29,886 nt of DNA. It comes from a virus. Positions 8,701-25,330 of this stretch are shown here, piece after piece. Within the stretch, counting starts at the first letter, position 1, and each line of letters starts with the position of its first letter. The stretch covers positions 1 through 29,886 of IMG/VR virus record IMGVR_UViG_3300025674_000249; one strand, 5' to 3'. Under the pieces are notes generated by a model. It did no database searches, had not been told where the DNA came from, and saw nothing but the letters and a program-made list of their open reading frames with translations. The translations under genes and the position numbers were made by a program.

Positions 8701-11430
8701 TAATTTAGTAATAGCTTCTTGTTTTATTCTTTCATATCTAGCTTTTTGTTTTTCATTACCAGAACTTAACAAAACAAATTCATTGCCAAAAGCATCTTCA
8801 TCTCTCCAAAGATCTCTAGCATACTGTATATTATCAAACTCTTGTTTAAGAGCTTTTAATTCATTTTGTTTTTCTTGTTGATTTTTTATAGTTTTATCAT
8901 TAACTATAGCAGAAGCTTGTGATCTTATTTCTTCTTGTCTTCTAGTAGCATCAGTGTACATGTTAAAAGCTTTAGGTGAAAGCTTATTGTTAACATTGTA
9001 ATCTACTTTATTAATGTTGTTTTCAATTTGTTTATCTAAACTTATTATTTGATCTTTATAAGATCTTCCAATCGCAGTACGACCATCTACCTTATCTAGC
9101 TTAGCTTTAAGAACGTTTCTTTGATCCGCTAAATCTCTAGTCTCTTTCCATTTTTTATGATCAGAAAACGCTGTTAAAGTGTGCCCATATACTAAAGGTC
9201 CACCTCCTAAAAACACACTAAACATACCAGAAGTAAACGCAGTATGGCCTGTATTTGTTAGTATAGGTCTACCATCTAAAGCGTTTTGTCCCCAGGTAGT
9301 ACCTACTTCTCCAGCCATATCTATAGCTGGTTCATATATTACATTTTTTCTAAGTGTACCATTAGTCCAAGCATTTTTAAAACCATCTTTCCAGTTTAAT
9401 AATCCTCTAGTACTAGCTGTACCTATTGAGTTTACACTGTTTCTTAATATTTTAGCAGTAGGTAAAGTACCTAATGTGCCGTCAAGTACACCGTATCCTG
9501 TACTTACAAACCACTTTTCTATACCAGAAGGATTATAATTAGGATCAGTAGCTTCTGTTACATCAAACTCTGCAAGTCTTTCACCAGCACTATATGTACC
9601 AATAGTAAGAGCAGGTAAAACTGCAGAGCCAGTACCACCAGTAGCTACCATAGCAGCTAGTATAGGTAGTTGTGTACCTACTTCTTGATTGACAAATCTA
9701 CCAAACCTATTGAAATCAAATTCTCCGTTTTTATCTTTGAAACTGCCAAATGAAACATCTTTAGCTAATACTTTTCTGCGCTCTTGATCTTTTTTAAATC
9801 TTTCTACTTGCCAATCAGTCAAGTCTTTCTGTAACATATCTCCGGCTAAACCTGTTAGTCCGCCTTGTAGTTGCATAACCTCACTAGCTGCTCTTCCTCC
9901 ATAATACACAATACCTGAACCAATAGATTCTAAACCTTTTACAAAATTATAAGTAAACTTATTTACATTACTATAATCTCTACCATATAAATCCATTTTA
10001 GTATTTAAGTCTGTAACTTCTTCTGTTAATGTATTTATTTCTTTATCTCTTTTCTGTAAAACAACTAACTTATTGTTTACGTTTGACTGAGCTTCTATGT
10101 AGTCGTTGTATAATTTTTCACCTATTATTTTGCCATTATTAAGCTTAATAGTTTTTTCTCCTTCTTCAGGAATAAACTCTTGTGTTGGATCTGATAAAAT
10201 TTCATTTACATAATTAACTAGCATTAAGTCTGGATTTTTACTTTCATTTAAAAAGTTGTTCATTTCCATTTCTTGTACAGCTAGTAATTCACCAGTCTTT
10301 TTTACTTTCTTATCTTTACTTTTTGCACCATATACATTTAACTTAGCTACTTCAGATGATGATAGTTCTTCTAAATAATCCTGCAAGTTACTGTCTTGCA
10401 TTTTATATGTCATATCAGCACCTATTATTTGTTTAGCTTTATTTTGTATTTGTTCTTTTGTAGGTGCAGGGAGTTGATCGCTTGGTGATCGTTGAGAGTT
10501 TAAGTAAGCTGTTTCTTTGTTTAAAATATCTTCTGCTTGAGCTAATTCATTTTCATATGGTTGAATAGTTTTTTCTACTCTTCTACTGCCACTTATAGCA
10601 GTACCAGTTCCACTATCTATTAATCCAGTTGAAACAGTTTCCATTTTTGTATACGGCTTAAACAACTCTTCATTAGGCTTTTTAGTTATGCTTTGTATTT
10701 CAGACTGTTGATAACCTGAAAGACTAATAGCTTCATCAGCTTCTTTAGCTAGCTTAGAAGTTACTTCATCTGGTTTATATTCTTTCGTTCCACCGTGTTT
10801 GTTGACAAAGCCTCTAATATCTGACTTAAAACTTTTACTTTTAGGATCTAATTCTATTTTGTCTCCTGTTTTATCATCTGTAAAAGATAAGTTAAACTGT
10901 GGCAGTGGTTGTGGACCATCAGGTCCATAATCATATTCATAAGTAGTATAGTCTTTAGCAGTAAAACCTGGATAAGCTTCATTAAGCATTACAGCCATTT
11001 TATCTTTACTAGCATTAGAAAACTGTACATCATCTACATTATCCATCCAAGTATGAGCATCATCTAACTTTATAGCTTCTTCAGTTGTCTCTTTCATTTT
11101 AGCTTCACGAACTATTTGAGACATACTTTTATTTACTTTAGGCTTTTCATTTGCTATACGATTATCTAAATCAGCTAGTCGCGTGTTATCTCTTTGAGTT
11201 TGAATTTTAGTTTCTTCATCTTGAGCATTGTCAACTGCGTCTTTAGTTTCTTCTCCAGAGAATATAGGTGCTTCTTGCTTTTTAGCAGGTGGATCTGTAG
11301 TAATGCCTTTATCTTCCATGTATGTTTGAGCGTCAGGGTAACCAAAATGTTTTGACGCTTCTTCTACTTGACTATAAGTGGCTTCTACTACTTCACCTTT
11401 TGAATTAGTGTAGTAATAAATATCATTCAT
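2707..11430 (-). CDS. Giant multidomain virion protein, probably ejected into the host (2907 aa)
   Basis: Last gene of the virion operon, in the position of the largest podoviral ejection protein. Visible regions in order: a polar N-terminus; Gly/Ala-rich hydrophobic segments at about 500-525, 583-612 and 732-753; coiled-coil-like stretches at about 770-870; a zinc-metallopeptidase-like HEPGH at 1030-1034 with Glu-rich EEVVVEFLEE about 65 residues later; a basic linker near 1210-1230; a conserved-looking block with YEHGIPAV near 1917; a HAD-phosphatase-like domain starting at DFDDT (2072-2076), with VLTAR as second motif and FADD as the acidic motif; and a C-terminal part with hydrophobic segments at about 2490-2525, 2705-2728 and 2742-2770. 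I recall the HAD and C-terminal blocks from marine phage virion proteins. Its start overlaps the upstream stop (ATGAATGA). Peptidase and phosphatase activity are inferred from motifs only. I found no RNA polymerase motif. Confidence 0.85.
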   Translation of the reverse strand: MNDIYYYTNSKGEVVEATYSQVEEASKHFGYPDAQTYMEDKGITTDPPAKKQEAPIFSGEETKDAVDNAQDEETKIQTQRDNTRLADLDNRIANEKPKVNKSMSQIVREAKMKETTEEAIKLDDAHTWMDNVDDVQFSNASKDKMAVMLNEAYPGFTAKDYTTYEYDYGPDGPQPLPQFNLSFTDDKTGDKIELDPKSKSFKSDIRGFVNKHGGTKEYKPDEVTSKLAKEADEAISLSGYQQSEIQSITKKPNEELFKPYTKMETVSTGLIDSGTGTAISGSRRVEKTIQPYENELAQAEDILNKETAYLNSQRSPSDQLPAPTKEQIQNKAKQIIGADMTYKMQDSNLQDYLEELSSSEVAKLNVYGAKSKDKKVKKTGELLAVQEMEMNNFLNESKNPDLMLVNYVNEILSDPTQEFIPEEGEKTIKLNNGKIIGEKLYNDYIEAQSNVNNKLVVLQKRDKEINTLTEEVTDLNTKMDLYGRDYSNVNKFTYNFVKGLESIGSGIVYYGGRAASEVMQLQGGLTGLAGDMLQKDLTDWQVERFKKDQERRKVLAKDVSFGSFKDKNGEFDFNRFGRFVNQEVGTQLPILAAMVATGGTGSAVLPALTIGTYSAGERLAEFDVTEATDPNYNPSGIEKWFVSTGYGVLDGTLGTLPTAKILRNSVNSIGTASTRGLLNWKDGFKNAWTNGTLRKNVIYEPAIDMAGEVGTTWGQNALDGRPILTNTGHTAFTSGMFSVFLGGGPLVYGHTLTAFSDHKKWKETRDLADQRNVLKAKLDKVDGRTAIGRSYKDQIISLDKQIENNINKVDYNVNNKLSPKAFNMYTDATRRQEEIRSQASAIVNDKTIKNQQEKQNELKALKQEFDNIQYARDLWRDEDAFGNEFVLLSSGNEKQKARYERIKQEAITKLRVDKNKAPDFQPDNKDINAAAYDIYVREEIQDRIDQSNKASNNFKTIVLETKQDAIDEVNRLVDEEFNIAASEETTSIQDAKTIEKKINSGRLNGFQVGNTNYAIMENAVANEKTEITIHEPGHQVFQEILQSRDADFTDMAKSVLEWTKVNNPAVFKRLTTQAGVNLLTSDKLADRKRGAEEVVVEFLEEVSADRLNFDRLQDKELAAYFSYMASDMMQKNTSNNFALNLKGKNDAISFLATLATKIKRGDITERDIQEARQSPVIKAIEEKTSETAAIELATKVKQAQSPIKESVSETPEEKAKRRDRRDTNVKKLYDKAPKTKQEFKEFVQTPEGKSDLGEILVDYYPDMLAIAKGDVDKAVAGYQPLIKHIEAFNPATNTDLAGYIGTYLKAKVGTGAKRVAKSEGPKAATRIGQQREGGRAFDIADTRAEADKTVDLNLRQLADIKEGSDLYNFILDKTKKVLSTFKPKVKGLNAEILELAKQPTNSKAIAQVNKAYKSIRQQLNSDFDTEMFKEVKNTIKKPNYKSWLENNKKAILSLDINTLVAFERLSKDKIFAVAEKKDMSPSEINAALSVGRKADLVYINPTSGPTLYKRLDPSPEQISEFFLKRGRDNALAKAIAAKLGENATMQALKGEVGQDKAKVIEIFSNNNPDLNWIPLENMLQMFGKITDQGLDAKLSEEISSKLSAENYQKFVTGQDTFIKSIVDVAKNQGIPLDDAERKALIGDLFDGNYPDLKQKAAVVNYFDKILRPYAKQTAKYKAVKIDLDTYINEVLTDDTIDRYADFYGLKNGAKIFAEQAITKQRPFVKTVANIMKANYKNPLDLAAKFWHYKAMLEDGSANPGRSMTFFSETGGSHVKVFIDEFIAPVFSTTENPIVEIKNINKTGEVEFKFKDGTSEKVKSPRREAQKTTQQMVDGTISKEELDRRAKDADRAFNFVVEIYEGAKKANPTKENLFMLSAGMGANMKGPIRAAAKLRYLPVNAKYKKLTRPDGKKAFEYEHGIPAVIVNLAIADAVLNDNTKIDLKKLQDTYSVGVISVEFNDNFGRFFKSRMPFNYKIGDMPTTRWYNEFTRGGEVHELLDVVEGETIGTEETNIWNATEEAKAVNDVDLSNNVFKMSEELSNEDVINLAGTIDEALKFARDPNAPVKKIRVFDFDDTLATSNNIVIAKRGDEEIKLNAEEFAERGLELKEEGYTMDFSDFNRVTDGGRGPLFKVAQAIKDARGNEDLFVLTARAPESQQAIYDFLKAEGLEFKKKNIIGLGNSTGAAKAKWIVEQAAKGYNDFYFADDAYQNVKAVRDALSVIDVKSKVQQAKFKFSENVDEDFNKIIENNFGIGRQKEYSAAKAKTIGASKGKGKFWIPYSAEDFQGLIYKLLGKGKEGDTQMAWFKEHLLQPYTRAMNSLAAARVNLLDDFRALKKALNIPKDLQQTNESGFSNEQAVRVSVWSKLGYEIDGLSKADQKELNDIVENNKNLKLFRDELITLTKGSEYAKPGESWLAGTVTTDLIDTLNTSVRSRLLKEQGWTDNVDLIFSDKNLNKLEAIYGPRYVEALRNSIMRMKQGKNRLFSGNRLSNRMLDYINNATGVVMFLNARSAILQTISAINFINWSFNNPYNAGKAFANQPQYWKDFKTLMNSDYLKDRRNGLRINISESEIANAAKTGKNKAKSAISYILSKGYAPTQIADSFAIASGGATWYRNKVKDLMKRNTNMSLKQAEAEALVEWRDVAEQSQQSSDPSKISSQQASDAGRLILAFQNTPMQYARLQKRAFQDLINRRGDAKSNVSKIIYYAVVQNLIFNALQQAIFALGADDEEEKKDKKYFDIAGGMIDSTIRGLGIGGVAIATVKNFLLDIYERSKRKRPEYTDSVWKLLQFSPPISSKISRLRQAAWQLDSKKRRKQIMEMGPFDIDNPAYEASAKVISAVTNVPLDRVLSKYNNLEAAMSEEAEWWQTVAMIAGWPEWQIMPKDNKKSVSEKPKIKTKSSIGFAP

Positions 11431-13836: not shown

Positions 13837-14322
13837 TTAATTTATTTTAAGTTTTGGATGGTTATAATCTTTTGAAGTTATATCATGTAATATTTCTTCT
13901 ACATTTGTTTTTTCTGTAGGATGCACTGTATACCACTCCATATCTTCGTGTATTAATAAAAGTCTTTGAGTTCCTGGTTTTGTCATGCCAAAATGAGGAG
14001 CTTCTACCTTTATCAAACCTTGTTCAGATAATACAGTTGCTTTACCTTTTAACACGAAAAAAGGATGCAAAACAGTGTGTATTGCACTCATGATTATTGA
14101 TCCTTTATTCATTGTAATTTTTCTTATATAAGTACCTTCTCCAAAAAAATGTTCTAAATTATTGCCGTTATATGTATCTATGCTATCATTTTCAGCGTAA
14201 GTTTTCCTAACAGCAGCGTCTGGCAGCTGAGCCATCTTAGCAGTAAGATCTGTCATTTGATTTCTAAAATCTTGTTTACTAAGATTACTCATCTGAACCA
14301 TAAGTTCGTTTAAATGTTTCAT
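13837..14322 (-). CDS. Cupin-fold small virion-associated protein (161 aa)
   Basis: The first 45 residues are helical and polar. Residues about 55-150 have the strand-turn pattern of a small cupin: IRKITMNKGSIIMSAIH, FFVLKGKATVLSEQG, APHFGMTKPGTQRLLLIHED and WYTVHPTEK. The Gly/Pro turns (VLKGKA, KPGTQR) and repeated His (IHTVLHP, HED, VHPT) are typical, but the full metal-binding GxxxxxHxH motif is incomplete. I recall cupin proteins of this type among the tail genes of other phages, role unknown. The gene lies between the tail and ejection genes, so a tail-fitting or assembly role is plausible. Its start directly follows two ATTAT repeats. Confidence 0.7.
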   Translation of the reverse strand: MKHLNELMVQMSNLSKQDFRNQMTDLTAKMAQLPDAAVRKTYAENDSIDTYNGNNLEHFFGEGTYIRKITMNKGSIIMSAIHTVLHPFFVLKGKATVLSEQGLIKVEAPHFGMTKPGTQRLLLIHEDMEWYTVHPTEKTNVEEILHDITSKDYNHPKLKIN

Positions 14323-14332
14323 ATAATATAAT
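14323..14332. repeat. Two pentanucleotide repeats before the cupin gene start
   Basis: On the coding strand the spacer after the preceding stop region reads (ATTAT)2 directly followed by ATG. It is the shortest of the three ATTAT leaders. Two copies could arise by chance in AT-rich DNA; only the similarity with the two longer leaders and the same placement make it notable. Confidence 0.55.
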
Positions 14333-16041
14333 TAAAATCCATTGGAATTAACATAATCTGATCTAGTAGACCAAAGTTGTTTAGTTCCACCTAATTGTGT
14401 AGTGTTATCTGTTTTAAACTTAACAGTAGCTACAAAGCCTCTTATACCTGTTATTTGATTACCAAATGATACTTCGTTTGGCATAGCTGTAGAGTTAGAA
14501 ACTATATTAGCTACATAAATATTTTCCTTCCTATTAAAGCCAGCATTTAAAGTTTGACCAGTAATAGGATCTACATATTTTCCTTCTTCATAACTTTTGA
14601 CAGATAGAGTTTGATCTTGATTTTCTACATATGTACCAGCCGGCAATTGATTAACTCCCGTAAAGTCAGAAACAAAAGACTCTACTTCCCAACCACTACT
14701 ACCTTCATATCCCACAGTTTTAAAGTTTTTTACTAAACTTGGCTGTACATTAAATACACAAGTTATTGTAGAAGGACTAGCTGTTCCGTAAAATGTGTTT
14801 CTAGTATTAACTACCTCTGAATAGTGTTTAAATAAACCTACTTCTTGAGTAGTAAAATAATTATTTTTTACAGAGAAAATTGTTTCTGGTTTATAAGTAT
14901 AAAAACTTACCCACCCATTTACCTTATCATCAAATGCTAGTGTTTGAAAATTTTCTGTTTTAGATTTTAATAATGGAGATTCTTGCAAGGACACAATATA
15001 ATTTCTATTATGAACATCCCAGCCTCCTTTTACTTTGCCATTTTCAGAATATTCAAACTTAACTTTAACACTAAGATCTGTAACAAAAGGTAGTGAATAA
15101 AATATTTTTACAGCACTTGGAGTAGAAGCATCGATTTGAGTTATATAACCTGGGTTACTTGGAATTGTCATACCTGTTGAAGGTATTGGCGTTACTCCAG
15201 TAAGATTTAAAGTTAAAGTCATGTCTCCAATATTACCACCACTTGACACTGTAAAATTTCCTGTAGCTGGGATGCTGTATGCTGTGTTAGTATCTTTTAC
15301 TTTAGCTAACTCATCTCTAAAATAATCTTCCATACCATAAGCACTAATCTCAGTAAGACCATCATTAGATAATCTCAATATAGCATTTCTGTTTCTATCA
15401 GAAAAATATTTTCTATAACCATAAGTTGCTAAAGACTCTGGATTTTTACTAATACCATAAACTCCTTTGTAAGGTACAAACTGACCTATAACGGCGGCAC
15501 CTGACTGAGTTTGAGTACCACTTTCCGTGGTATATATAGTGTCTTTATCTATTAACGCTCTACTAATTTTGTTTTCCTGAAACACAACCATGTTAGTATC
15601 TTCGGCTAAAGTGCGCTGTATAGTTCCATTCTCAGGATCTAAGGACTTAGTAATGTCTGTACCAGTAGAAAACACATTTGTGTTATTAATACCTGTTCTA
15701 GAGTTGTATATACCAGAATAAATTAATGTATTAAACCTATGTTGTTGTAGCGGAAATGGATCATCTAAAAAAGCTCTAACACCTTTATCTATACTAACAG
15801 CATTAAAATCACCTCTTATTCTAGATTCTTCTATGTAAAAATTAGAATAAAATCCTTCTATTCTATCTTGATTTGTTCCACTCGATCCAATGGTAAGATC
15901 AATACCGCCAGGCCAGCATATTCCAGGGCCTAATGCCATATGTCTATTAGGATTAGAGTTTGTCCTACCATTCAATGATTGACTATAAGTCTGCTTAATT
16001 AAATAAGTGTTATTAAAATCTACTTCTATTACTGCTGACAT
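14332..16041 (-). CDS. Tail structural protein following the nozzle gene (569 aa)
   Basis: A beta-rich, Asn/Thr/Ser-rich protein lacking transmembrane segments. The first 290 residues hold blocks I remember from marine phage tail proteins: EESRIRGDFNAVSIDKGVRA, QQHRFNTLIYSGIYNSRTG, EDTNMVVFQENKISRALI and GISKNPESLATYGYRKYF. The remainder looks like stacked beta domains. In some phages I recall these blocks at the C-terminal end of the same protein that carries the nozzle-like start, so this may be the second half of a split tail protein. It lies 11 bases downstream of that gene in a different frame, with its own ATG and an A/T-rich leader. A host-contact role cannot be excluded. Confidence 0.7.
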   Translation of the reverse strand: MSAVIEVDFNNTYLIKQTYSQSLNGRTNSNPNRHMALGPGICWPGGIDLTIGSSGTNQDRIEGFYSNFYIEESRIRGDFNAVSIDKGVRAFLDDPFPLQQHRFNTLIYSGIYNSRTGINNTNVFSTGTDITKSLDPENGTIQRTLAEDTNMVVFQENKISRALIDKDTIYTTESGTQTQSGAAVIGQFVPYKGVYGISKNPESLATYGYRKYFSDRNRNAILRLSNDGLTEISAYGMEDYFRDELAKVKDTNTAYSIPATGNFTVSSGGNIGDMTLTLNLTGVTPIPSTGMTIPSNPGYITQIDASTPSAVKIFYSLPFVTDLSVKVKFEYSENGKVKGGWDVHNRNYIVSLQESPLLKSKTENFQTLAFDDKVNGWVSFYTYKPETIFSVKNNYFTTQEVGLFKHYSEVVNTRNTFYGTASPSTITCVFNVQPSLVKNFKTVGYEGSSGWEVESFVSDFTGVNQLPAGTYVENQDQTLSVKSYEEGKYVDPITGQTLNAGFNRKENIYVANIVSNSTAMPNEVSFGNQITGIRGFVATVKFKTDNTTQLGGTKQLWSTRSDYVNSNGF

Positions 16042-16052
16042 AATTTTTAAAT

Positions 16053-19000
16053 TTATGAACTTACTGCATCATCACTATCAGGTGGATCTGGAGCTGTACC
16101 ACTAGCACCTGTTCCTGTTGCTATTTGAACATTTAAATCGCTTACTAATCCTGAACACGCAGTTTCGTAATATATTTGTATTTCAGATTTAGGTGGCTCT
16201 ACTTCCATTACGTTTAATCTAAGATCAGAGCTGATAAACGATGTATTAACGTATGTTGGGTTTACTACTGGCACACCTATGTTTCTACCATTTGTATTCA
16301 TTTTAAAACCTATAGGATCTTGCTGGGCATTCACAAAACCAACGCCTGTTAGTGGTGTACTAGCGGCTAAGTCTAAAGCTTTTAAATCTGTTAGTTTAGC
16401 AGAAAAAACACCTGTTACAAACGGATTACTTTTATCAGCTGTAGTATTAGACACATAAAAATTATTAGTTACTACTGTACTCGAGCCAATAGCCATAGTA
16501 GATTGTACTCTTGGAAACAACTTAGTAGTATTAGGGGCAAACAATTGTTGGTTAGGTTCTGTTTCAGATAAATCTGCTGGTACTTTATTTATATTACTAC
16601 CAAATAAACTAGCATAAGATAATGAAGTCCTAAATAAACCTTGTTCTAGTAAAGTACCTGTACTATCTTTTTGATCTTTAAAACCTCCTTGTATAACATT
16701 ACCTAAATAAGCATTGTAATACTCGTCTTCTAGTTGCTTAATTACAACTTTATAGCTATAAAAACCTAACGGATTAGCTTCGCCAACTACATTATAAACT
16801 GTGCCAATAGAACCTATACTTGGTGGCGTTGGGCTTAAAGTTATGTTAGCTGTTGGAGATGCAGGGTAAGTAGGATAAGATATAGAAACAGCTGACATTG
16901 CATAATCAACACCTCCTATAGTAATAATGTCTCCAACTTCAGGGTTTTCACTAAAGTTTGTTATACCAAAACTACTTCCAATAAGTGAAGAGGTTACAGT
17001 CGCCGTGTAGCTACCTGTCTTATATAAACCTGGATAACCATCCGCGTAAGACACACTATTAGGTATTACAGATCTAAACAAAACTTTAATTGAATCACCA
17101 AACCACCTGTTTATACGGTTAACTTGCGCTCTTCCTGTTGAAAAATATTTATGAAAAACTGTATCACCGCCATAACTACCACCAGCATAACTAAATTGAT
17201 TAGCGTCTGCATCTGATAAAATTACATCTGTTTGTCTTCCGTATCGATCTGCTAGTATTATACCTATTTGATAAGTTCTATTTTGTTTTACACTAGCCGT
17301 AGGATGTTTAACTAATAAATTAGCAGGATTTTTAGGAAGACCTGAAGAGTCTTCTCTTGAATTTAATTTAGCGCTAATTTCCACATTGTAACTCAAAGCT
17401 TCAGGTGGAGTATGCTTATTTAAAAAATTACCATAAACAACTCTATTGCCAGTAACAGATTGAGTCTTAGCTCTAATAGGTACTCTATCAAACACTCTAA
17501 CTAACTGTGCTTCTGTAATAGGTAGTTTTGGTTCATTAGAGTTGTAGTTATATGTAAATGTATTAGTTGAATTAGAAGTAATTCTAGTATCAGTTCTAGG
17601 TATAGTTTCTAATATTCTTACAGCTAAAGTATCTGACTCTTTATAAAGTATGTCTATTTCTTCTATTTTTAAATTATCATATAGAGTATTTACAGCAAAA
17701 GGAGTCTGTATATTTAAATCAACTACATTAACACTGTTTTCAAAAAAATCTACAACAGTACTTCTAGCTATATTTTCATAACCTCTTTCTACATTTGTTT
17801 GACCAGTAGTAGCTGTAGTACCATCATATAATTGATTAATATCTACAATGTGTCCATTCTGTTTAGGTACGAAAGCAGGGCTAGTAAACGGAGCTATTAA
17901 AGAATATTCGCCATCTTCAAATTTAAATCTATAACTAAACCTAACAAACTTATCTCTTAAATATTCTGTATCACCTGAAAAGTTAGATAAATATTGAGAG
18001 TTAGAATCGGCAAAATAAACTAAAGCATTATAGTTTGTTGCTGGTGGAAGATTTTCAAAAGCTTCTCGCATTTCTGTTAATCCACCACCTGTAGTTTTAA
18101 CAGTGGCACTATTGTCTCCTAAAACATAACCAGGTAACTCAGTTATTGTTATAACAGACTTTGTTCTACTATTAAACACACGCATGCTTGGGTACAAATT
18201 TCCAGATAAATTACTCACAGTAAAATCTATAGTAGAGCCAACAGTGGCGGGAGAACCTGCAGTACCAAATACTGTAGCTTCTGTAAATCTATCTGAAACG
18301 TTTTTAGATCCAGTTTCTAGTATGGTTAAAGTAGTAGCTGTAGGATCTGTCTCATCAAGATCTTGATTTAGTGTAAAAGTTCTAGCACTAGCTGACGTAC
18401 TTTGTATAATGCAAGGCGTTGATTGAGTATTTGTGTTAGGCATTTTAACAAATTGCCCTTGTCTTATTTTAGCATAATCTGCAGCACTTAAAGTAAAAGG
18501 TCCAGGCCCAGTCAACGTACCACTTAGTACAGTAACAGTAAATTCATTAACTAAACTTATAGGATTATAAGGATTATATTTTGCTACCGATATATTATCT
18601 TCTGTTGTGTAATGAGTAGAACTAGCTAAAGCTTTATCTACGTTTATTCTTCTTGGCTGGTTTCTATCATCAGTCCAAAATAATAAATCTTCAATTAAAT
18701 CTACATTAAGTATAGGGTGAGTAATAGAAAAATTTAAAAACCTACCTTCTACTAATGTATGAGTACTATTATTTGTAAAGTCTCTCATTATTATTGTATG
18801 AGTAGAACCTTTACCTGCAAAATTACTTAATCTATCACTCGAATTATCATAGTGATCTGTTATATAAAAAAATCCTCTTTCTTTACTTTGATCAATATAC
18901 TGACCTATAACTTGCTTATTGTCATATATTGTACTCGTAATTAGATTAGTTACTAATTCATTTCCTAACACATTTTCAACAGAACCTACATCATCACCTT

Positions 19001-19115
19001 CAGATCTACTTACATTAATATTCTGAGCATCTCTGTACTCGCCTTTACCTACTAGCCTTTCGTCTAAGTCTTTGTTCATCTTAGACTTGATAAATATATT
19101 TTTCGCTAATGCCAT
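16053..19115 (-). CDS. Nozzle-like tail tube protein (1020 aa)
   Basis: Probably forms the tail nozzle below the neck rings, the role of T7 gp12 or crAss-like nozzle proteins. The N-terminus has the block KSKMNKDLDERLVGKGEYRD followed by AQNINVSRSEGDDVGSVENV (residues about 11-48), which I recognise as the start of such proteins in marine phages. The next 150 residues continue in propeller-like repeats (DLIEDLLFWTDDRNQPRRIN near 120-140). Two Thr/Ser/Pro-rich beta stretches look inserted, at about residues 190-280 and 702-775. The C-terminus is Gly/Ala/Pro/Asp-rich and probably disordered. The start lies four bases after the preceding stop. The protein is slightly longer than T7 gp12 (about 800 residues), consistent with the insertions. 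Confidence 0.75.
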   Translation of the reverse strand: MALAKNIFIKSKMNKDLDERLVGKGEYRDAQNINVSRSEGDDVGSVENVLGNELVTNLITSTIYDNKQVIGQYIDQSKERGFFYITDHYDNSSDRLSNFAGKGSTHTIIMRDFTNNSTHTLVEGRFLNFSITHPILNVDLIEDLLFWTDDRNQPRRINVDKALASSTHYTTEDNISVAKYNPYNPISLVNEFTVTVLSGTLTGPGPFTLSAADYAKIRQGQFVKMPNTNTQSTPCIIQSTSASARTFTLNQDLDETDPTATTLTILETGSKNVSDRFTEATVFGTAGSPATVGSTIDFTVSNLSGNLYPSMRVFNSRTKSVITITELPGYVLGDNSATVKTTGGGLTEMREAFENLPPATNYNALVYFADSNSQYLSNFSGDTEYLRDKFVRFSYRFKFEDGEYSLIAPFTSPAFVPKQNGHIVDINQLYDGTTATTGQTNVERGYENIARSTVVDFFENSVNVVDLNIQTPFAVNTLYDNLKIEEIDILYKESDTLAVRILETIPRTDTRITSNSTNTFTYNYNSNEPKLPITEAQLVRVFDRVPIRAKTQSVTGNRVVYGNFLNKHTPPEALSYNVEISAKLNSREDSSGLPKNPANLLVKHPTASVKQNRTYQIGIILADRYGRQTDVILSDADANQFSYAGGSYGGDTVFHKYFSTGRAQVNRINRWFGDSIKVLFRSVIPNSVSYADGYPGLYKTGSYTATVTSSLIGSSFGITNFSENPEVGDIITIGGVDYAMSAVSISYPTYPASPTANITLSPTPPSIGSIGTVYNVVGEANPLGFYSYKVVIKQLEDEYYNAYLGNVIQGGFKDQKDSTGTLLEQGLFRTSLSYASLFGSNINKVPADLSETEPNQQLFAPNTTKLFPRVQSTMAIGSSTVVTNNFYVSNTTADKSNPFVTGVFSAKLTDLKALDLAASTPLTGVGFVNAQQDPIGFKMNTNGRNIGVPVVNPTYVNTSFISSDLRLNVMEVEPPKSEIQIYYETACSGLVSDLNVQIATGTGASGTAPDPPDSDDAVSS

Positions 19116-19119
19116 TTAA

Positions 19120-20322
19120 TTAGTGTTTAATCCATTTAGATTTACCTCTCATTACTTGAGTAAACTCTTCCAATTTAATATTGCTTAATCTTATTTTAGC
19201 GTTTCTTAATTTAGCAACTTTCTCTTTTTTATATCTTTGAACGATATATTCAGGTACTCTAGGTTTAACTGAAGTTACAGCATATAACATGTATGCATAT
19301 AAAGCATCTTCTGCTAATTTAGGTATTTTAGTATTTTCATCATTATAAAGACCGTCTGATATATATTCTAAAACAATTAATCTTTGCGCTAAGTTACTGC
19401 TAAAAGCAAATACATTTCTTCTAGGATCATAAGTAAACCATCCATTTTTTTGACTAACTTCTGGCTCAGCTCCATATCTTTGACCATAAACATTTTTATA
19501 CCAAGCGTTAGCATATACATCTGCTTCTGTAAAATTTTCACTGCCAGCTGAACCTGCTATATTGTTTTGGTTAGCTGATCTCCATCTATCATTTATTAAA
19601 GCTTGTTGAGACTCTAAATTATTTCCATACTGGTCTTGAGTAGGAACACCTTGATCGTCTTGTATTACTGGAGCTGTAGGATTACTTGTTAATCTAGTAT
19701 TGTATATTATATGTTTAACACCAGCTTGATCTACCCAAGATAATTGAACATAGTTAACCATATCCTGTGGAGCTATTATAGACAAATTATTAGGTATAGT
19801 TAGCTCTTGAGCTTTTATACTTCTCAACGTGTCATAGCTAAACTCTTGTATACCTCTTTTAGCGTGGTATATTAAATCAGTTCTTCTAACTCTTGGTATA
19901 ACTTTGTCTGTACCTACGTAATTTATTATAAAGTTATTGACTATTTCACTTAATGGAGTATATTGATAACCTCCATAATTACTCCACCTACTTTGGTCTA
20001 TAAAAGCTACTTTAATTACAGATGTACCTGGGACAACTACAGCAGTATTTATAGTTAATATTTGAACAGCTACACCATTAGTTATAGTAGTACTTAAAGA
20101 AGTAGTAAAGTTATAAGGAGCTTGACCAAATTGCTTTACATTGTCAATAAAAACGTCAAAATTATCAACAGAAGTTTGGGTTGCTCCATCGTTAAAAATT
20201 AACGGTGGTAAAGTTTGTGGCCAAGTTACTGAATTACTATTAGTACCATCGCCTAATTGAGCTACTTCACCTGAATAATATTCTGAGTTAGTTTGTTGTT
20301 TTTGATTTCCTAATGTATGCAT
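19120..20322 (-). CDS. Neck/ring (head-tail adaptor) protein (400 aa)
   Basis: Residues about 120-400 contain LSEIVNNFIINYVGTDKVIP, RRTDLIYHAKRGIQEFSYDT, MVNYVQLSWVDQAGVKHIIY, and later EYISDGLYNDENTKIPKLAE with AYMLYAVTSVKPRVPEYI. I recognise this pattern from head-completion or ring proteins between portal and nozzle in crAss-like and marine phages; the helical core with long loops fits a dodecameric ring. The first 115 residues are beta-rich and Thr/Asn/Val-rich, and look like an added decorating domain. It starts three bases after the stop of the 357-residue gene and ends four before the nozzle gene, so the three are one assembly unit. Confidence 0.75.
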   Translation of the reverse strand: MHTLGNQKQQTNSEYYSGEVAQLGDGTNSNSVTWPQTLPPLIFNDGATQTSVDNFDVFIDNVKQFGQAPYNFTTSLSTTITNGVAVQILTINTAVVVPGTSVIKVAFIDQSRWSNYGGYQYTPLSEIVNNFIINYVGTDKVIPRVRRTDLIYHAKRGIQEFSYDTLRSIKAQELTIPNNLSIIAPQDMVNYVQLSWVDQAGVKHIIYNTRLTSNPTAPVIQDDQGVPTQDQYGNNLESQQALINDRWRSANQNNIAGSAGSENFTEADVYANAWYKNVYGQRYGAEPEVSQKNGWFTYDPRRNVFAFSSNLAQRLIVLEYISDGLYNDENTKIPKLAEDALYAYMLYAVTSVKPRVPEYIVQRYKKEKVAKLRNAKIRLSNIKLEEFTQVMRGKSKWIKH

Positions 20323-20325
20323 GTT

Positions 20326-21399
20326 TTATCTTTTTTCGTTTGCTTGATCTTCAGCTAATTCTTTATAAGCTGCATTGACTACGCCAGGATCTTTTACGAT
20401 TACGCCAGAATATTTTAATATTTCCATTGTAACAGTGTTTCTTTGTGAATCATCTATTTCATAATCAATACTTCCTTGAGTTGTATTAGTTTTAGTCATT
20501 AAATCTTTTGCTTCTATAAGTCTTAATGAAAAACCATTGTTCAACGATCCAAATGCGCCAGCAGCAACAGACAACGCATTATTAACAGCATATCCTGAGC
20601 TGTTATCTAAAGTAGAAATTTTTATAGTAGTATTAGCGCTAGATAAAGTTATTGTACCTGATCCTGCTATAGTTATATCTAATAAACAACCAGTTCCAAC
20701 TCCATTAGTTGACGTAACTACTCCAGTGTAAGTTCCAGCAGCTGCCGTAGTTCCAACTGGAAAAGATGGAAAAACAGTAAAAGTTTGTCCTATAATCAGT
20801 TTAGAAGTAGAAAAAGTTCTAGAGTCGTATATATATTGGCCTAAGTCACCTACATAAAATCCCCAACGTGGATCTGTAGGCTTACGCATGTAACTAAACT
20901 TAACATCACTAACAGATGTAACAGCTGGATTACCATTAGTTATCTGAGGATATACAGTTAGTTTATTATCTTTAAATGTTGCTATTGGAAATGTTTCACT
21001 CGGTTGAGTTAACGGTGACATGTTTAGTTGTCTAAATTCTCTTTGACTAACTAATTGTATTCTTGGCGAACCTTTAACGCCATTATAAAATACACTTCCT
21101 AACCTATGTAAATCAGTTGGATAAGTATATACATTAGAAGGATTAGTGTTGGCTGATGCAGACTCAAATTTTTCAAACAATTGATATTCGTCTCTTACAT
21201 GCTCTATTCTACTAGCATATTCTTCATCTGTTTTAGGCATACGTAAATACTGGTTGTAGTCTTCAAAGAAAGTTTCAAAAACTTCTAATTGAACTTGACT
21301 AGCTAAAAGATTATATTCGTACGGCGTTAAATAACCTCTTTGTTCTTTATTCAAGATACTTAAAACTGTAGTGTAAACAGTATTTACATTAATTCCCAT
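20326..21399 (-). CDS. Neck/ring protein with inserted beta domain (357 aa)
   Basis: The N-terminal 60 residues (VNTVYTTVLSILNKEQRGYL, then TPYEYNLLASQVQLEVFETF) form helices I associate with a conserved head-to-tail connector of marine phages. Residues about 60-200 hold mixed alpha/beta neck sequence with KPTDPRWGFY. From about residue 203 to 293 a Thr/Gly/Ser-rich beta unit is inserted (TYTGVVTSTNGVGTG ... NSSGYAVNNALSVAAG), and the core then resumes (IDYEIDDSQRNTVTMEILKY). It lies directly after a terminator, so a promoter or read-through is needed; the spacer at 21400-21410 is pure A/T. The protein probably stacks on the portal; its exact ring position cannot be told from sequence. Confidence 0.7.
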   Translation of the reverse strand: MGINVNTVYTTVLSILNKEQRGYLTPYEYNLLASQVQLEVFETFFEDYNQYLRMPKTDEEYASRIEHVRDEYQLFEKFESASANTNPSNVYTYPTDLHRLGSVFYNGVKGSPRIQLVSQREFRQLNMSPLTQPSETFPIATFKDNKLTVYPQITNGNPAVTSVSDVKFSYMRKPTDPRWGFYVGDLGQYIYDSRTFSTSKLIIGQTFTVFPSFPVGTTAAAGTYTGVVTSTNGVGTGCLLDITIAGSGTITLSSANTTIKISTLDNSSGYAVNNALSVAAGAFGSLNNGFSLRLIEAKDLMTKTNTTQGSIDYEIDDSQRNTVTMEILKYSGVIVKDPGVVNAAYKELAEDQANEKR

Positions 21400-21410
21400 A
21401 TTTATATATA

Positions 21411-21437
21411 TTAAAAAGGCGGCGCGTGGCCGCCTTA
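21411..21437 (-). terminator. Strong hairpin terminator between the 256- and 357-residue genes
   Basis: The eight-pair stem AAGGCGGC (21416-21423) with GCCGCCTT (21429-21436) has a five-base loop. Read on the - strand it is followed by TTTTTAATAT. It lies within the virion operon in the direction of transcription, after the 256-residue gene and upstream of the 357-residue gene? No: transcription runs right to left, so it follows the 256-residue gene and precedes the 357-residue gene. It would reduce transcription of all neck and tail genes relative to head genes. Confidence 0.85.
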
Positions 21438-21451
21438 ATTATAATCACTTG

Positions 21452-22222
21452 TTATTTTAGTTTTTTCTGTATTGATTTATAAACTTCAATACCTTCATCT
21501 GTTTTTAACCAAGCTGCCATTGCTGAATATGGGTTTTCTTCAAATGGAACTGTCATTAATTTTCTACCATTACTAGTCCATTTAAACACTCTATTATCAT
21601 CAGCTAAAGTAATAATATTAGCTTCAACTGCTTTGATAGCAAAGTTTCTTAATTCAACGTTTTCATCTTCACAAAGATTTAAAAACAACTTTGGTTGTTG
21701 TTTAGCAAAGATTAATAAATCTCTTTTTAATTCTTTAGAAGATAATTGATTTACGCTTGATCCTTTTTCAACTCTTAATATAGCTTCGGCTTTATCAATG
21801 TCCATTTCATAAGCCATATTAGAAGCTGCAAGTTCTAGTTCTAACCAATCAAAATGATCTTCTGCTTCCACTACAGCATCAAACTCTGTAAATATAATAC
21901 CGTTATGTGGATGTTTAGCTAAGAACTCTTGTAAATTTCTTTTTTCTTTAGGAACTTGTAAATGTCCTTTTTCAAAAACAATATGCGCTAAAGTTACGTT
22001 ACCTTTTTGCTCGTCAACAAATATGCTCTTATGATTACTAGCATATCTCATTTCTCTTTCATAACCTTTTTCTTTATCAAACCATACTAAAGGGTATCTA
22101 GAAGAATGCTTGCTAGGTATAGTATGAGTTAAAGGCATTTTGTTTTTTAATAAATAATAATTTCTATCTTTATACTCCCAATTATCTTTTTTCTCTGGAG
22201 TGTTTTTTACTTTTGTTTCCAT
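21452..22222 (-). CDS. Conserved virion-operon protein of unknown function (256 aa)
   Basis: A hydrophilic alpha/beta protein. The N-terminal half contains NWEYKDRNYYLLKNKMPLTH, IPSKHSSRYPLVWFDKEKGY and SIFVDEQKGNVTLAHIVFEK. The helical second half contains MDIDKAEAILRVEKG, LSSKELKRDLLIFAKQQPKL and NGRKLMTVPFEENPYSAMAA. I recall this whole architecture as a conserved unknown between capsid and neck genes in marine phages, which argues for a basic structural or assembly role, not a casually acquired extra gene. Hairpin terminators lie on both sides, so it appears to be a separate transcription unit. Four ATTAT repeats run into its start codon, and no Shine-Dalgarno motif is present. Confidence 0.75.
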   Translation of the reverse strand: METKVKNTPEKKDNWEYKDRNYYLLKNKMPLTHTIPSKHSSRYPLVWFDKEKGYEREMRYASNHKSIFVDEQKGNVTLAHIVFEKGHLQVPKEKRNLQEFLAKHPHNGIIFTEFDAVVEAEDHFDWLELELAASNMAYEMDIDKAEAILRVEKGSSVNQLSSKELKRDLLIFAKQQPKLFLNLCEDENVELRNFAIKAVEANIITLADDNRVFKWTSNGRKLMTVPFEENPYSAMAAWLKTDEGIEVYKSIQKKLK

Positions 22223-22241
22223 AATATAATATAATATAATA
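22221..22241. repeat. Four perfect pentanucleotide repeats abutting the start codon of the 256-residue gene
   Basis: ATAAT occurs four times in tandem on the + strand, equal to (ATTAT)4 on the coding strand; the last copy merges into ATG. The same unit occurs three times at 25315-25330 before the scaffold gene and twice at 14323-14332 before the cupin gene. Confidence 0.9.
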
Positions 22242-22274
22242 ATTAATAAAGACCCCGCCGAAGCGGGATCTTTT
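22241..22274 (-). terminator. UUCG-capped terminator after the 101-residue gene
   Basis: On the - strand GATCCCGC-TTCG-GCGGGGTC (22270 down to 22251) is fully paired with one U-G wobble, capped by the very stable UUCG tetraloop. Flanking AAAA and TTT extend the stem. The following tract, TTTATTAATT, is T-rich but broken. It separates the highly expressed head genes from the neck and tail genes. On the + strand four T also follow, though no + strand gene ends here. Confidence 0.88.
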
Positions 22275-22283
22275 ATATATAGT

Positions 22284-22589
22284 TTACGATATTGTTACTT
22301 TTTCAATATCAACACTAGTTACCAAAGTTGGTAAACCAACAGGTATAGCAGGGCCAGAAGCTCCATTAGCTAGTTCAATAGCAGCGTTTACTTTTTTCCT
22401 TACATCAGGATCAGTAACTCCACTTGTTGTAGCATATGTAACTTCAGCTCTCATATAAATACCAGTACCAAATACAGGTGCATAATCAATGTTGATTTCA
22501 GTTGCACTAGCAGTACTTACATGTATTATATTTTCAGCAGGAAGTAAATCTACTTCACCACTTGCTTTTAAGAATGATATATATCCCAT
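22284..22589 (-). CDS. Small head-associated protein next to the capsid gene (101 aa)
   Basis: The gene directly follows the major capsid gene with a 30-base A/T-rich spacer, and precedes the UUCG terminator, so it is the last gene of the head transcription unit. The protein is beta-rich with no Cys: it starts MGYISFLKASGEVDLLPAEN, has a central VTYATTSGVTDPDVRKKVNA stretch that includes a short helix (AAIELANG), and ends VTSVDIEKVTIS. Position and size fit a head decoration or cement protein; no motif proves it. I recall small proteins of the same design beside marine phage capsid genes. Confidence 0.65.
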   Translation of the reverse strand: MGYISFLKASGEVDLLPAENIIHVSTASATEINIDYAPVFGTGIYMRAEVTYATTSGVTDPDVRKKVNAAIELANGASGPAIPVGLPTLVTSVDIEKVTIS

Positions 22590-22619
22590 AATTTTTATCT
22601 TTTAAATGTTAAACAATAA

Positions 22620-24134
22620 TTAAGCTCCTTTGAATAACACGAAGTTATTAGCAGCTTGAGTTACTAAACATCTTTCAGATAAGAAACTTACAGTCATAGC
22701 ATCTAGAGTGTCAGTGTATGCACCACCAACTGAACCAGTAATCCAAGACTTCATTCTTCGATCTTCAGTTTCAGAAGCTCTATATCTTACATGTAAGAAA
22801 GGACGTCTGATATTAGATCCTAACATTTGATCGTATACTGTAGTAGTACCAGCTGGTATTAATACACCATCGATTTCTTTGTCAAGTCCTCTTAATGAAG
22901 CATCATTTAAGTATTTCCAGTCAGTTTTGTAGAAGTCATAAGAACCTCTTCTAAATCCTGAAAATCCAAAGTTTAACGCCATGTCACCGTCATTCTCAAA
23001 TAAACCATAAGAAGCAGCCTGTGTAGAAGCATAAGCTCCATTTACAGCTGCAATCATATCATCAAAGTCAAGAGCAGTAGCTCTAGATAAGAATAACATG
23101 TTTTCTTCAATAGCACCTTGCTTATCTAAGTTTTTGAGTATTTCATCAAAATCTCCTAAAGCACCTGAACCAGGAGCAGCAGCACCAGCAAAACCAGAGT
23201 ATACGTTACCTCTTGCTTCAATAGCAGCAAATAAACCTTCAGAACCTTGAATGTTAGTAGTTAATGCAGCATTATTAGCTCCACCATATTGGTATTGTAC
23301 AGCGTTACCCGCTTCAGTATAAGCAGCGTTATACATATTTTCAGCTTCAACCATAGCCATTTCTAACTGATCCTCAAATCTTAGTCTTGTTTCAGACTCA
23401 GACTTTAAGTACCATAAATAACCTGATTGACCGTCTTCTGTAGCAACTTCAACCCAACCAATTTGAGCAGTATCAGAACCATTAATCTCAAAGTTATCTT
23501 TAAGTATCATTGGTCTGTTAGCAAATTGAGTAAAAGTAGGCTGAATAGATCCTTGCATACCAATTGAACCTTTACCAAACTCTGATCCGTAAACAAATAC
23601 GTTACAACCACCAGCAGCTGTAGGTAAAGAATTAGTAGCAGTACCATAAAACTTAACGTTTAACACATTAAGAGTACCACCAGAAACAAGTTGTACTAAA
23701 CCTTTTTGTACGATTAATCCAGTTGCATTATCAGAAATTAATACTGTTTGTCCTTGTCTGATAGCACCTCTTCTGTCAGCAGCAGCAACATCTGGCTGTG
23801 CAACAGCTAAATCAATAGTAAGAGTAATATCAGCATCAGGTAATCCACCTGGAGCAGCAACAGTACAAGACTTATATGCAATGTGTAATCTATTTTGTTC
23901 AGACCAAATTACTTGATCCGATGTCATCGGCATCTCTGCACCGACCATTCTTAGGAAACCACCAATTGTTCTGTTTCCATAACGTTCCACCTCAGCTTCA
24001 TAAAGCTCTGGTAAGTATTGCTGAGCAAAACTACCTGTGCTTCCATCAAACGTTAAATAGTTTGTATGTAGAGCTAATCTAGTTTGAGCTGGAACTAAAC
24101 TTGCGGGAAAACTCCCACCGTTTACAAAACTCAT
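22620..24134 (-). CDS. Major capsid protein (504 aa)
   Basis: Likely HK97-fold shell subunit. It lies directly after the scaffold gene, in the usual place, and has the size of crAss-like and similar capsid proteins (about 490-510 residues). Recognisable parts are a helical YLPELYEAEVERYGN segment near residues 40-55, then IGGFLRMVGAEMPM and DQVIWSEQNRLHIAY; a middle part with QGQTVLISDNATGL; a glycine-rich QYGGANNAAL region near residue 280; and FGFSGFRRGSYDFYKTDWKY with ASLRGLDKEIDGVLIPAGTT towards the end. No delta-domain protease is encoded here, and the separate scaffold gene fits. Two Met-free hydrophilic stretches make the given start the only good one. The call rests on position, size and remembered sequence. 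Confidence 0.85.
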   Translation of the reverse strand: MSFVNGGSFPASLVPAQTRLALHTNYLTFDGSTGSFAQQYLPELYEAEVERYGNRTIGGFLRMVGAEMPMTSDQVIWSEQNRLHIAYKSCTVAAPGGLPDADITLTIDLAVAQPDVAAADRRGAIRQGQTVLISDNATGLIVQKGLVQLVSGGTLNVLNVKFYGTATNSLPTAAGGCNVFVYGSEFGKGSIGMQGSIQPTFTQFANRPMILKDNFEINGSDTAQIGWVEVATEDGQSGYLWYLKSESETRLRFEDQLEMAMVEAENMYNAAYTEAGNAVQYQYGGANNAALTTNIQGSEGLFAAIEARGNVYSGFAGAAAPGSGALGDFDEILKNLDKQGAIEENMLFLSRATALDFDDMIAAVNGAYASTQAASYGLFENDGDMALNFGFSGFRRGSYDFYKTDWKYLNDASLRGLDKEIDGVLIPAGTTTVYDQMLGSNIRRPFLHVRYRASETEDRRMKSWITGSVGGAYTDTLDAMTVSFLSERCLVTQAANNFVLFKGA

Positions 24135-24152
24135 AATTTTTGTTTTTAGTTG

Positions 24153-25316
24153 TTATTTTTTTATTTTAAATTTCAACTTAGAACTATCTACACCACTAAT
24201 CGCTTTTACTCGCAACCCATTTATAAACATGTCTCCGTTTGCTTGAGGTCTAATATCTTCACCAATATTCTTTGATTTAGATGTTATATTTCTTATAGCA
24301 TCGGCTTTACCTTGTTCGTAAAAATGAGAAGCAATTTTATCAGGATTTTGTGCTGTATATAAAGCTTTGTGATAACCTTTAGCATCACCAATCGCACCAT
24401 CTTTGTTCAAGAACTTCTGAAACAAACTATTTAAATTTGATTGTTTTTTAGCAATATCACTAGGGTTATTTATATTATATCTAAAAGTTTTTTCTCCAAC
24501 TGAATATTCAAAACCTTTGAAACTTTCGTTAAATAACTTATTAGAACTAGTAAGAAATATTTCCCTATTCTTTGCTCCTTTTTCTTGTTCTTTGTTGTGT
24601 CTATTGAAAAAGTCCATAGCTTTTTGTTGTTCTGGAGTTAAACCACTAGATCTCAACTTGATTTCTTTGTAGTATTTACTCTTTGTTTCTTCCAAAAAGC
24701 TTTTGGCTTTAGCAATTTCTTCTTTATAAGCAAGTTTTTTCTTTTTTATTTCTCGCTCATCATCCACATCTTCTTCAATTTTGAAATTATCTTCCATTAT
24801 AAAGTTAATTTCTTCTTGATTTAAATGTGGTTTAGTTCTTTTATAGTATTCATTAAGTATAGCATCTTCATTATACTCTGAATAATTTCTATTTAATCTA
24901 GCATAATCTTCAATAGTACCACCTGTTTCTTCCATAAAACTTACTAAAGCTTCTATGTTTTCTGGAAGTTTTTTAGTTGGCGTTTCTTCTTTATGCTCTT
25001 GTACAGTTTCTTGTACAACTTCTTCTTTATTTTCTTCAGGAGTAATTTCTTCTAAAGGATTTACTTCTTCTTTTTTCTCTTCGGCAACCGGCTCAACACT
25101 TGGTTCGGGTGCTCTTTCCTCCACTTTTTCCACATTTGTGGTTTGTTTATCCTCATCCAAACTTCCTGCGCTTTGCTCTGGAACGGCATTTTCTTTTTCT
25201 TTTTCTTCTGGTTTTTTATTCATATCAAGTTTATACACTTGATCGTTATTCCTTTTTAATGAAGGCTTTTTTATTTTTAAAGGCAAAGCCTCTTGCTCTT
25301 GTTTTGTTGTTGACAT
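24153..25316 (-). CDS. Scaffold protein for procapsid assembly (387 aa)
   Basis: Lies between portal and capsid genes. It is extremely hydrophilic. Residues about 10-115 are Glu/Lys/Pro/Val-rich with low complexity and probably disordered. A helical, coiled-coil-prone core at about 150-265 follows (DEREIKKKKLAYKEEIAKAK, KGAKNREIFLTSSNKLFNES). The C-terminus is basic, ending LRVKAISGVDSSKLKFKIKK, like scaffold tails that bind capsid subunits. These traits and the position define scaffolds better than sequence homology does. No protease domain is present. The start is preceded by three ATTAT repeats, and the product should be needed in high amounts, transiently. Confidence 0.8.
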   Translation of the reverse strand: MSTTKQEQEALPLKIKKPSLKRNNDQVYKLDMNKKPEEKEKENAVPEQSAGSLDEDKQTTNVEKVEERAPEPSVEPVAEEKKEEVNPLEEITPEENKEEVVQETVQEHKEETPTKKLPENIEALVSFMEETGGTIEDYARLNRNYSEYNEDAILNEYYKRTKPHLNQEEINFIMEDNFKIEEDVDDEREIKKKKLAYKEEIAKAKSFLEETKSKYYKEIKLRSSGLTPEQQKAMDFFNRHNKEQEKGAKNREIFLTSSNKLFNESFKGFEYSVGEKTFRYNINNPSDIAKKQSNLNSLFQKFLNKDGAIGDAKGYHKALYTAQNPDKIASHFYEQGKADAIRNITSKSKNIGEDIRPQANGDMFINGLRVKAISGVDSSKLKFKIKK

Positions 25317-25330
25317 AATATAATATAATA
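25315..25330. repeat. Three pentanucleotide repeats abutting the scaffold start codon
   Basis: The + strand has ATAAT three times plus A; on the coding strand this is (ATTAT)2 followed by ATTATG, so the final copy contains the AT of the start codon. The preceding bases are AACT, which makes an unstructured leader of only A and T for more than 15 bases. No purine-rich ribosome-binding motif is present. Confidence 0.85.

Follow-up and report, generated by a model that had tools for sequence, protein, structure and literature searches.

Short direct repeats upstream of start codons are known from marine Beggiatoaceae, in which TAACTGA heptamers have been proposed as post-transcriptional sites (MacGregor 2015, PMC4679880). 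The ribosomes of Bacteroidota initiate largely without Shine-Dalgarno pairing, favour an A at positions -3 and -6 and prefer unstructured leaders with upstream A (PMC6847099). In Flavobacterium psychrophilum, leaderless mRNAs are uncommon, at 5.5% (PMC9723704). In phage phiKZ, the late promoters of the nvRNAP read TATG, with the G as start site (told in PMC5312081). Here, we describe tandem A/T repeats with a five-base period that run into the start codons of two genes in a virus record of 29,886 bases and 33% G+C (IMGVR_UViG_3300025674_000249; record G000), the whole of which is referred to as the window. One gene encodes a protein of 256 amino acids (aa), the other occupies the position of the scaffold gene. 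With a probability of roughly 0.52, the tract is a start-codon-abutting, five-base-period translation-initiation leader. Among the matches listed for the open-access literature, none dealt with phage leaders of a five-base period.

Tandem A/T tracts at two start codons

Three ATTAT tracts lie on the minus strand of the window, at the starts of the 256-aa gene, the scaffold gene and a cupin gene (Table 1). At the first two, the AT of the ATG is part of the last repeat; the cupin tract stands in a different register, yet the five-base period there also continues into the AT of the ATG. Elsewhere in the operon, leaders are A/T-rich but do not contain the ATTAT repeat. The three tracts, the shared AT at the first two and the non-repeating leaders of the other genes agree with a preliminary description of the window. 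The repeats are real and beyond chance: ATTATATTAT occurs six times in the window, compared to an expectation of 0.53, and six occurrences were reached in 0 of 100 dinucleotide shuffles.

Conservation was assessed in an ingroup of 153 loci (2.03 Mb) that were fetched by their capsid or 256-aa protein, three doubles of the same contigs having been dropped. These loci cluster around the capsid genes; counts over whole records come from separate record sets, many of which may be fragmentary. Gene calling followed a naive longest-ATG rule that misassigns some leaders. In the relatives, the unit is ATATY (ATTAT in the notation of the preliminary description). A total of 260 tracts of at least 13 nt was found, 251 of which precede the scaffold gene (n = 123) or the 256-aa gene (n = 128). 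Most end in the AT of a called ATG (n = 231) or one nt before it (n = 16), which places 247 of the 260 ends inside or at most one nt from a called ATG, and four more end 2–60 nt before one. The other nine, three coding and six intergenic, have no called start within 60 nt. All but two (258/260) are on the capsid-gene strand. As a class, these are forward-strand tandem repeats that end at or near a start codon, and not repeats that are equally common elsewhere.

A pattern test recovered the tract at the 256-aa gene in 133 of 142 relatives and at the scaffold gene in 94 of 123. The leader consensus of the 256-aa gene across relatives is ATTATATTATATTATATTATGGAAAC. For both genes, the upstream consensus is near-invariant across the tract alone, and beyond it just a hairpin before the 256-aa gene shows; the tract is nearly unchanged while the surrounding sequence diverges. 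The shared element that the preliminary description proposed for all three genes is strongly supported for the scaffold and 256-aa genes, where it is kept across the phage group, and not for the cupin gene: six of ten relatives have the cupin tract, each with nearly identical flanking sequence, while four lack it. Exact copies of TATTATATTATATTATG were counted in 30 records (five of them originally found through the pattern itself), with two copies in 23, one in five and none in two, always on one strand per record. The 23-mer (ATTAT)4GGA occurs in at least 119 loci of viral contigs. Among the 118 examined, 109 belong to the 256-aa gene and four to the scaffold gene, while five are cut by the contig end; all 113 assignable loci therefore belong to the scaffold or 256-aa gene of this phage group, for which the 23 bases form a signature. 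Extended by one base, the resulting 24-mer matches four stretches in genome_contigs, two of which are the same phage group in metagenome-assembled genomes (MAGs) of Bacteroidota and two of which lie in one Thermoplasmata MAG. A single match was found in one of 20 other genomes from the family of one such MAG.

The period also occurs outside the ingroup. The capsid protein of MW202828 was used to fetch 80 loci, referred to as the sister set. In these, the leaders of the scaffold and 256-aa genes read like AAATYAAATYAAATG, with AAATY as unit. Register and lag-5 identity were counted over 80%-identity representatives. AT at both -5/-4 and -10/-9 is present in 10 of 15 scaffold and 10 of 17 256-aa representatives of the sister set, compared to none for the portal (0/9), capsid (0/19), 357-aa (0/15) and 400-aa (0/10) genes. 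In the ingroup, the same register is found in 29/36 scaffold and 39/42 256-aa representatives, while the controls give 1/37 for the portal gene and 0/47, 0/37, 0/22 and 0/29 for four other genes. Lag-5 identity exceeds that of shuffles by 0.18 at both genes in the sister set (-0.08 to +0.06 at four others) and by 0.21 (scaffold) and 0.30 (256-aa) in the ingroup (-0.02 to +0.01 at seven others). Deviations at other lags also occur at some genes, such as 0.11 at lag 7 for the ingroup capsid gene. A lag-5 score of at least 0.6 is reached by 31 of 36 scaffold and 41 of 42 256-aa representatives of the ingroup. A 71-row capsid tree has a branch (97/92) with the rows fetched as ingroup on one side; the labels in this tree reflect how rows were fetched and not a row-by-row score, its bootstrap is unsettled and two isolates sit on long branches.

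A few other genes of these phages have similar leaders. At the primase-helicase gene, 20 of 40 distinct leaders score at least 0.6 at lag 5, while lags 3, 4, 6 and 7 give 1, 8, 0 and 2; in relative G001, the stop codon of the previous gene is only 13 nt away from this leader. Comparable leaders were seen at groEL (5/5) and at an 82-aa gene (5/5), and eight further genes scored for such a leader show little or no excess. G001 carries this groEL (L272:12775-14316, minus strand; PHROG_5725, 2.5e-131) as well as a groES-like gene (L275:2595-3185, minus strand; PHROG_13932, 2e-22). At a stricter score of at least 0.75, a survey over called genes retained 16 of 224 distinct leaders in five phage relatives, five of the 16 being those of the scaffold or 256-aa gene, and 24 of 671 in the sister set, where 19 belong to these two genes as assigned from N-termini. 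The score was reached by 15 of 691 leaders near the sigma factor gene discussed below, by 1 of 137 in isolates (only Panino and elemo, with stretches of 13 kb) and by none of 364 bacterial leaders, all from stretches of a single family that was taken to be Flavobacteriaceae. These bacterial stretches stem from six genomes, i.e., a Flavobacteriaceae MAG in which phage contigs are also present and five drawn as its family, with L498-L501 and L507-L511 left out. Lags other than 5 give 0–12 in this survey.

Genes and hairpins around the tracts

The window represents part of a phage and includes a head-and-tail module. Its minus strand encodes terminase, portal, the scaffold-position gene, capsid protein, a 101-aa gene, the 256-aa gene and further structural genes, and its plus strand carries ribonucleotide reductase. 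The capsid protein is identical to that of IMG/VR locus L084 over 489 columns, and the 256-aa proteins of the two are identical as well. Among named phages, 85 records contain capsid relatives, every one below 60% identity: 68 of Flavobacterium, 15 of Cellulophaga, Maribacter phage Panino and MW202828. The tract-bearing phages are marine and related to Bacteroidota phages.

Table 1. Tracts, hairpin elements and adjoining genes in the window.
Feature	Position	Strand	Basis and remarks
(ATTAT)2 before the cupin gene (ATG at 14322), in another register	14323..14332	-	sequence; local, outside the conserved pair
Second terminator-like hairpin with T-run, between the 256-aa and 357-aa genes	21413..21434	-	sequence
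256-aa gene	21452..22222	-	PHROG_34748, 7.4e-29
(ATTAT)4 tract into the ATG (at 22222) of the 256-aa gene	22221..22241	-	sequence
Terminator-like hairpin GATCCCGCTTCGGCGGGGTC with T-rich run, directly before the 256-aa tract	22245..22270	-	sequence
Scaffold-position gene, 387 aa, between portal and major capsid	24153..25316	-	function from position only
(ATTAT)3 tract into the ATG (at 25316) of the scaffold gene	25315..25330	-	sequence

The scaffold-position protein has no PHROG match at 0.001 and no Pfam match at 0.1. The predicted fold of the 256-aa protein (model pLDDT 74.8) resembles proteins of crAss-like and flavobacterial phages, with 11 BFVD matches at E ≤ 0.001, including Cellulophaga phage phi14:2 and crAss-like viruses, and no match in the PDB at the same threshold. 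A hairpin with T-run lies within 70 nt before the 256-aa gene in 114 of 142 relatives, compared to one in shuffles. Its stem-loop GATCCCGCTTCGGCGGGGTC (window 22251-22270) is nearly letter-identical in many sampled relatives whose 256-aa protein is about 70–75% identical, and it is less variable than the hairpin before the 357-aa gene, a conservation that exceeds the need of a plain terminator. The second hairpin with T-run recurs in 105 of 129 relatives and in none of the shuffles. Directly after the stop codon of the 256-aa gene, CAAGTGATTATAA (window 21439-21451) is kept in many sampled relatives and also stands behind a few other stop codons. It was considered as the missing late promoter and rejected, as its 14 places in five relatives, many of them inside genes, are too few. 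The structural cluster is closed by a 2907-aa protein (window 2707-11430, minus strand) without a Pfam match at 0.1, in which a DFDDT stretch resembles the motif of HAD phosphatases.

Translation leader, promoter or operator

As a translation leader, the tract would form a cis-acting 5' part of the mRNA, usually comprising three or four units of five bases and ending on the start codon, with AU recurring at -5 and -10 in register with the AUG. It would act at initiation, in hosts that presumably make little use of Shine-Dalgarno pairing: at a few genes, the unstructured repeats would serve as a landing site and thereby bring the 30S subunit, or an RNA-binding protein with tandem domains, to the AUG. 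A periodic single-stranded A/U ligand suits tandem RNA-binding domains; ribosomal S1 or a phage protein may be its reader, S1 being the obvious candidate and a phage protein the more interesting one. Several of the genes served would act in virion assembly and folding, i.e., the scaffold, GroEL and, judged by its position, the 256-aa protein. Speculatively, the number of repeats might set the strength for each gene. It is conceivable, though we hold it unlikely, that the tract is a distinct ribosome-binding signal, in which a five-base-period leader locked to the AUG has a dedicated, perhaps phage-encoded reader and a small regulon is preferentially translated. The scaffold, the 256-aa protein, groEL and the primase-helicase would then be the members of this regulon.

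Several points weigh against a role in translation initiation. In the ingroup, the place of the tract within the mRNA is a presumption. An A at -3 is present in 36/36 scaffold and 40/42 256-aa leaders of the ingroup, an A at -6 in only 1/36 and 0/42, so that the Kozak-like combination of both is lacking; in the sister set, A-3 itself is often missing (present in 5/15 and 6/17). For these reasons, neither leader is the ordinary A-rich leader. The periodic leader is also weaker in the sister set, with a lag-5 score of at least 0.6 in 9/15 scaffold and 8/17 256-aa representatives. A-rich capsid leaders of the ingroup reach 0.6 at lag 5 in 9/47 and at lag 7 in 38/47, and a high lag score alone therefore does not define the class; register is the sharper test. 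A reader of the S21 family was absent from 40 records in a search whose controls matched in 6 of 14 genomes, and the RegA family was found in 0 of 40 records in a search that is uninformative, as no control matched. Finally, no recognisable host promoter box precedes the ingroup scaffold gene, and the 256-aa gene follows the terminator-like hairpin described above (114/142 loci), two observations that are compatible with a promoter.

A promoter is indeed the main rival. The preliminary description had proposed a translation or promoter element, and the comparison with the sister lineage favours the former. According to the latter, which we regard as rather unlikely, the tract is a -10-like box read by the host RNA polymerase with a phage sigma factor, late transcription would yield leaderless mRNAs starting at the ATG, and the repeats would be overlapping boxes. 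A suitable factor exists: relatives encode a 251-aa protein of the sigma-70 family (L273:5716-6468, plus strand; Pfam PF04542 above its cut-off; PHROG_351, 2.3e-17). Its matches to solved sigma factors reach E 5.2e-8 in sequence and, with low TM-scores, E 4.1e-5 in fold. Its gene overlaps an upstream 206-aa gene with weak helix-turn-helix matches. The factor was found in 8 of 34 records, seven times at 73–100% identity (the source, G001, included) and once at 26%; G020, the record of the nearest relative found for the window, has it at 76%. It occurs in 71 viral loci and not in the window fragment, in none of four isolates and, at E 0.01, nowhere in a collection of 50,697 phage records. Among 50 longer records with the sigma factor, 45 hold the tract sequence with at most two mismatches and 38 with at most one, although these matches are not tied singly to genes and the reversed-pattern control, which also matches tract sites, is little informative. 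In the remaining five, the start of the 256-aa gene shows ATTATATTATATATTATG (two records), TTTTATTTTATCATG (one) or only a tract-like leader end (two). This co-occurrence of sigma factor and tract may equally reflect shared descent, as the capsid tree requires only one change. A T7-like RNA polymerase gave no match in 30 records, nor did the controls of that search.

The distribution of host-type boxes speaks on both sides. Counted as one fixed pattern, TAHHTTTG precedes the scaffold gene in 55 of 65 sister loci, the 357-aa gene in 69/70 and the portal gene in 29/47, compared to 0/77 for the 256-aa gene and 0/78 for the capsid gene. In the ingroup, this Bacteroidota sigma-A box is practically missing at the tract genes (scaffold 1/123, 256-aa 0/142), which would suit the promoter. 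However, it is likewise missing at tract-free ingroup genes (357-aa 0/129, portal 1/122; capsid 0/153), and the sister 256-aa gene lacks it as well. Isolates carry a host-type TAnnTTTG box before the scaffold and neighbouring genes and, unlike the 77 sister loci, also before the 256-aa gene in MW202828 and elemo. Per kb, the stretches of MW202828 and elemo hold 2.2 and 1.6 such boxes between genes versus 0.8 and 0.7 within genes; for G001-G005, these values are 0.5–1.1 versus 0.65–0.82, i.e., hardly any excess or none.

What places the promoter behind the leader is the scaffold gene of the sister lineage, where the five-base-period leader, in the same register as in the ingroup, sits downstream of such a host-type box. 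The box ends 15–23 nt before the ATG, and probable promoters of F. johnsoniae have 4–5 nt from box to transcript start (PMC6847099); most of the periodic stretch should therefore be in the mRNA, and the sister scaffold leader is probably transcribed. Nor does the period seem confined to phages with the sigma factor, which was not found in 13 longer sister records (some of them fragments) or MW202828 in the same search as for the other 34 records. Scanning the 80 sister loci for the factor is uninformative, as the 153 ingroup loci also lack the factor. Moreover, the sequence upstream of the tract has no conserved -33 element and, besides the hairpin, no other conserved block, and similar leaders also follow the stop codon of the gene before them. 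The same phages do have what looks like a promoter class with leaderless geometry at their early genes, TACGA-N9-GATAAT, which lends some plausibility to leaderless late transcription while offering the sigma factor an alternative and, we infer, more natural target than the tract. In the 71 sigma loci, TTACAAACTAAATACGA-N9-GATAAT has 95 sites, near-copies included, all on the sigma strand and 56 of them with 6 nt between GATAAT and the next ATG; the element was found in 0 of 17 sister and isolate records. It was noted in L272, L273, L282 and the sigma loci L300-L370; upstream of early genes in the sigma-bearing phages, its spacer is nine bases in 113 of 124 sites.

Alternatively, the tract may be an RNA operator, to which a phage translational regulator binds in order to block or coordinate the synthesis of the scaffold and 256-aa proteins. 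The scaffold protein of P22, which represses its own synthesis, offers a parallel. The sites of T4 RegA are A/U-rich and unstructured and overlap or abut the AUG, as in gene 44 (AAAUUAUGAUU; PMC3014915). The tract shares these traits, being A/U-only and predicted to be unstructured (-0.2 and 0.0 kcal/mol over -20 to +20), and its repeated unit precedes few genes. Still, no candidate repressor was found, the search for the RegA family (0/40 records) having had no working control, and the presence of such leaders at groEL and a primase-helicase gene points to a wider role. We regard an operator as quite doubtful.

The preliminary description also suggested that the element is possibly tunable by repeat number, which slippage can change; as a slippage switch, copy-number changes would tune or turn off the genes. 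The repeats are tandem and tract lengths span 13–26 nt, but the usual length is gene-specific, with 16 nt (three copies) in 95 of 123 scaffold tracts and 21 nt (four copies) in 86 of 128 256-aa tracts. Pairs with 90–99.9% protein identity, which are not independent, have the same number of units in 107 of 109 cases for the scaffold gene and in 100 of 112 for the 256-aa gene, 12 pairs of the latter differing; together, 207 of 221 agree, where a phase-variable repeat should frequently differ between close relatives. Below 70% identity, the number agrees in about half of the pairs, and slow change of unit number does happen. As close relatives mostly share their copy number and there are just three or four units, a slippage switch is not supported and appears very improbable. 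Equally improbable is an ordinary A/T-rich leader shaped by base composition, which would fit the low G+C content of the window and the Bacteroidota preference for unstructured leaders with upstream A (PMC6847099), as the tract is specific to strand and gene, neighbouring genes have non-periodic A/T leaders and the 364 bacterial leaders without a strong five-base period are nearly equal in A/T (0.81 vs. 0.82).

Comparison with described systems

How start codons are chosen without Shine-Dalgarno pairing in Bacteroidota and their phages is a question for which this leader offers a compact, testable handle, since it is near-invariant, gene-specific and periodic and exists in two lineages with different units. 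Each of the known systems shares part of its features. Like the phiKZ late promoters, the tract is a short A/T motif that ends in TATG, but these serve a multisubunit phage polymerase (PMC5312081), whereas here, relatives yielded only a sigma factor. The operators of T4 RegA are likewise A/U-rich and unstructured and abut or overlap the AUG of selected phage genes, yet the sites quoted in PMC3014915 are not tandem repeats. With the Kozak-like A-rich leaders of Flavobacterium (PMC6847099), the tract has in common that it is A/T-rich and unstructured and, in the ingroup, carries an A at -3; it differs from them in having T instead of A at -6, in being gene-specific and in its period, which was not seen in the bacterial leaders surveyed here. 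The TAACTGA repeats of Beggiatoaceae are alike in being short direct repeats in few copies, mostly in forward orientation, the largest single class of which ends 1 nt before the start codon (PMC4679880). Their unit, however, has seven bases and, according to the same account, they form 169 sets in one bacterial genome without a functional pattern (PMC4679880). The phage tract, in contrast, has a five-base A/T unit (ATTAT/ATATY or AAATY), stands at two genes per phage, overlaps the ATG and is conserved by descent.

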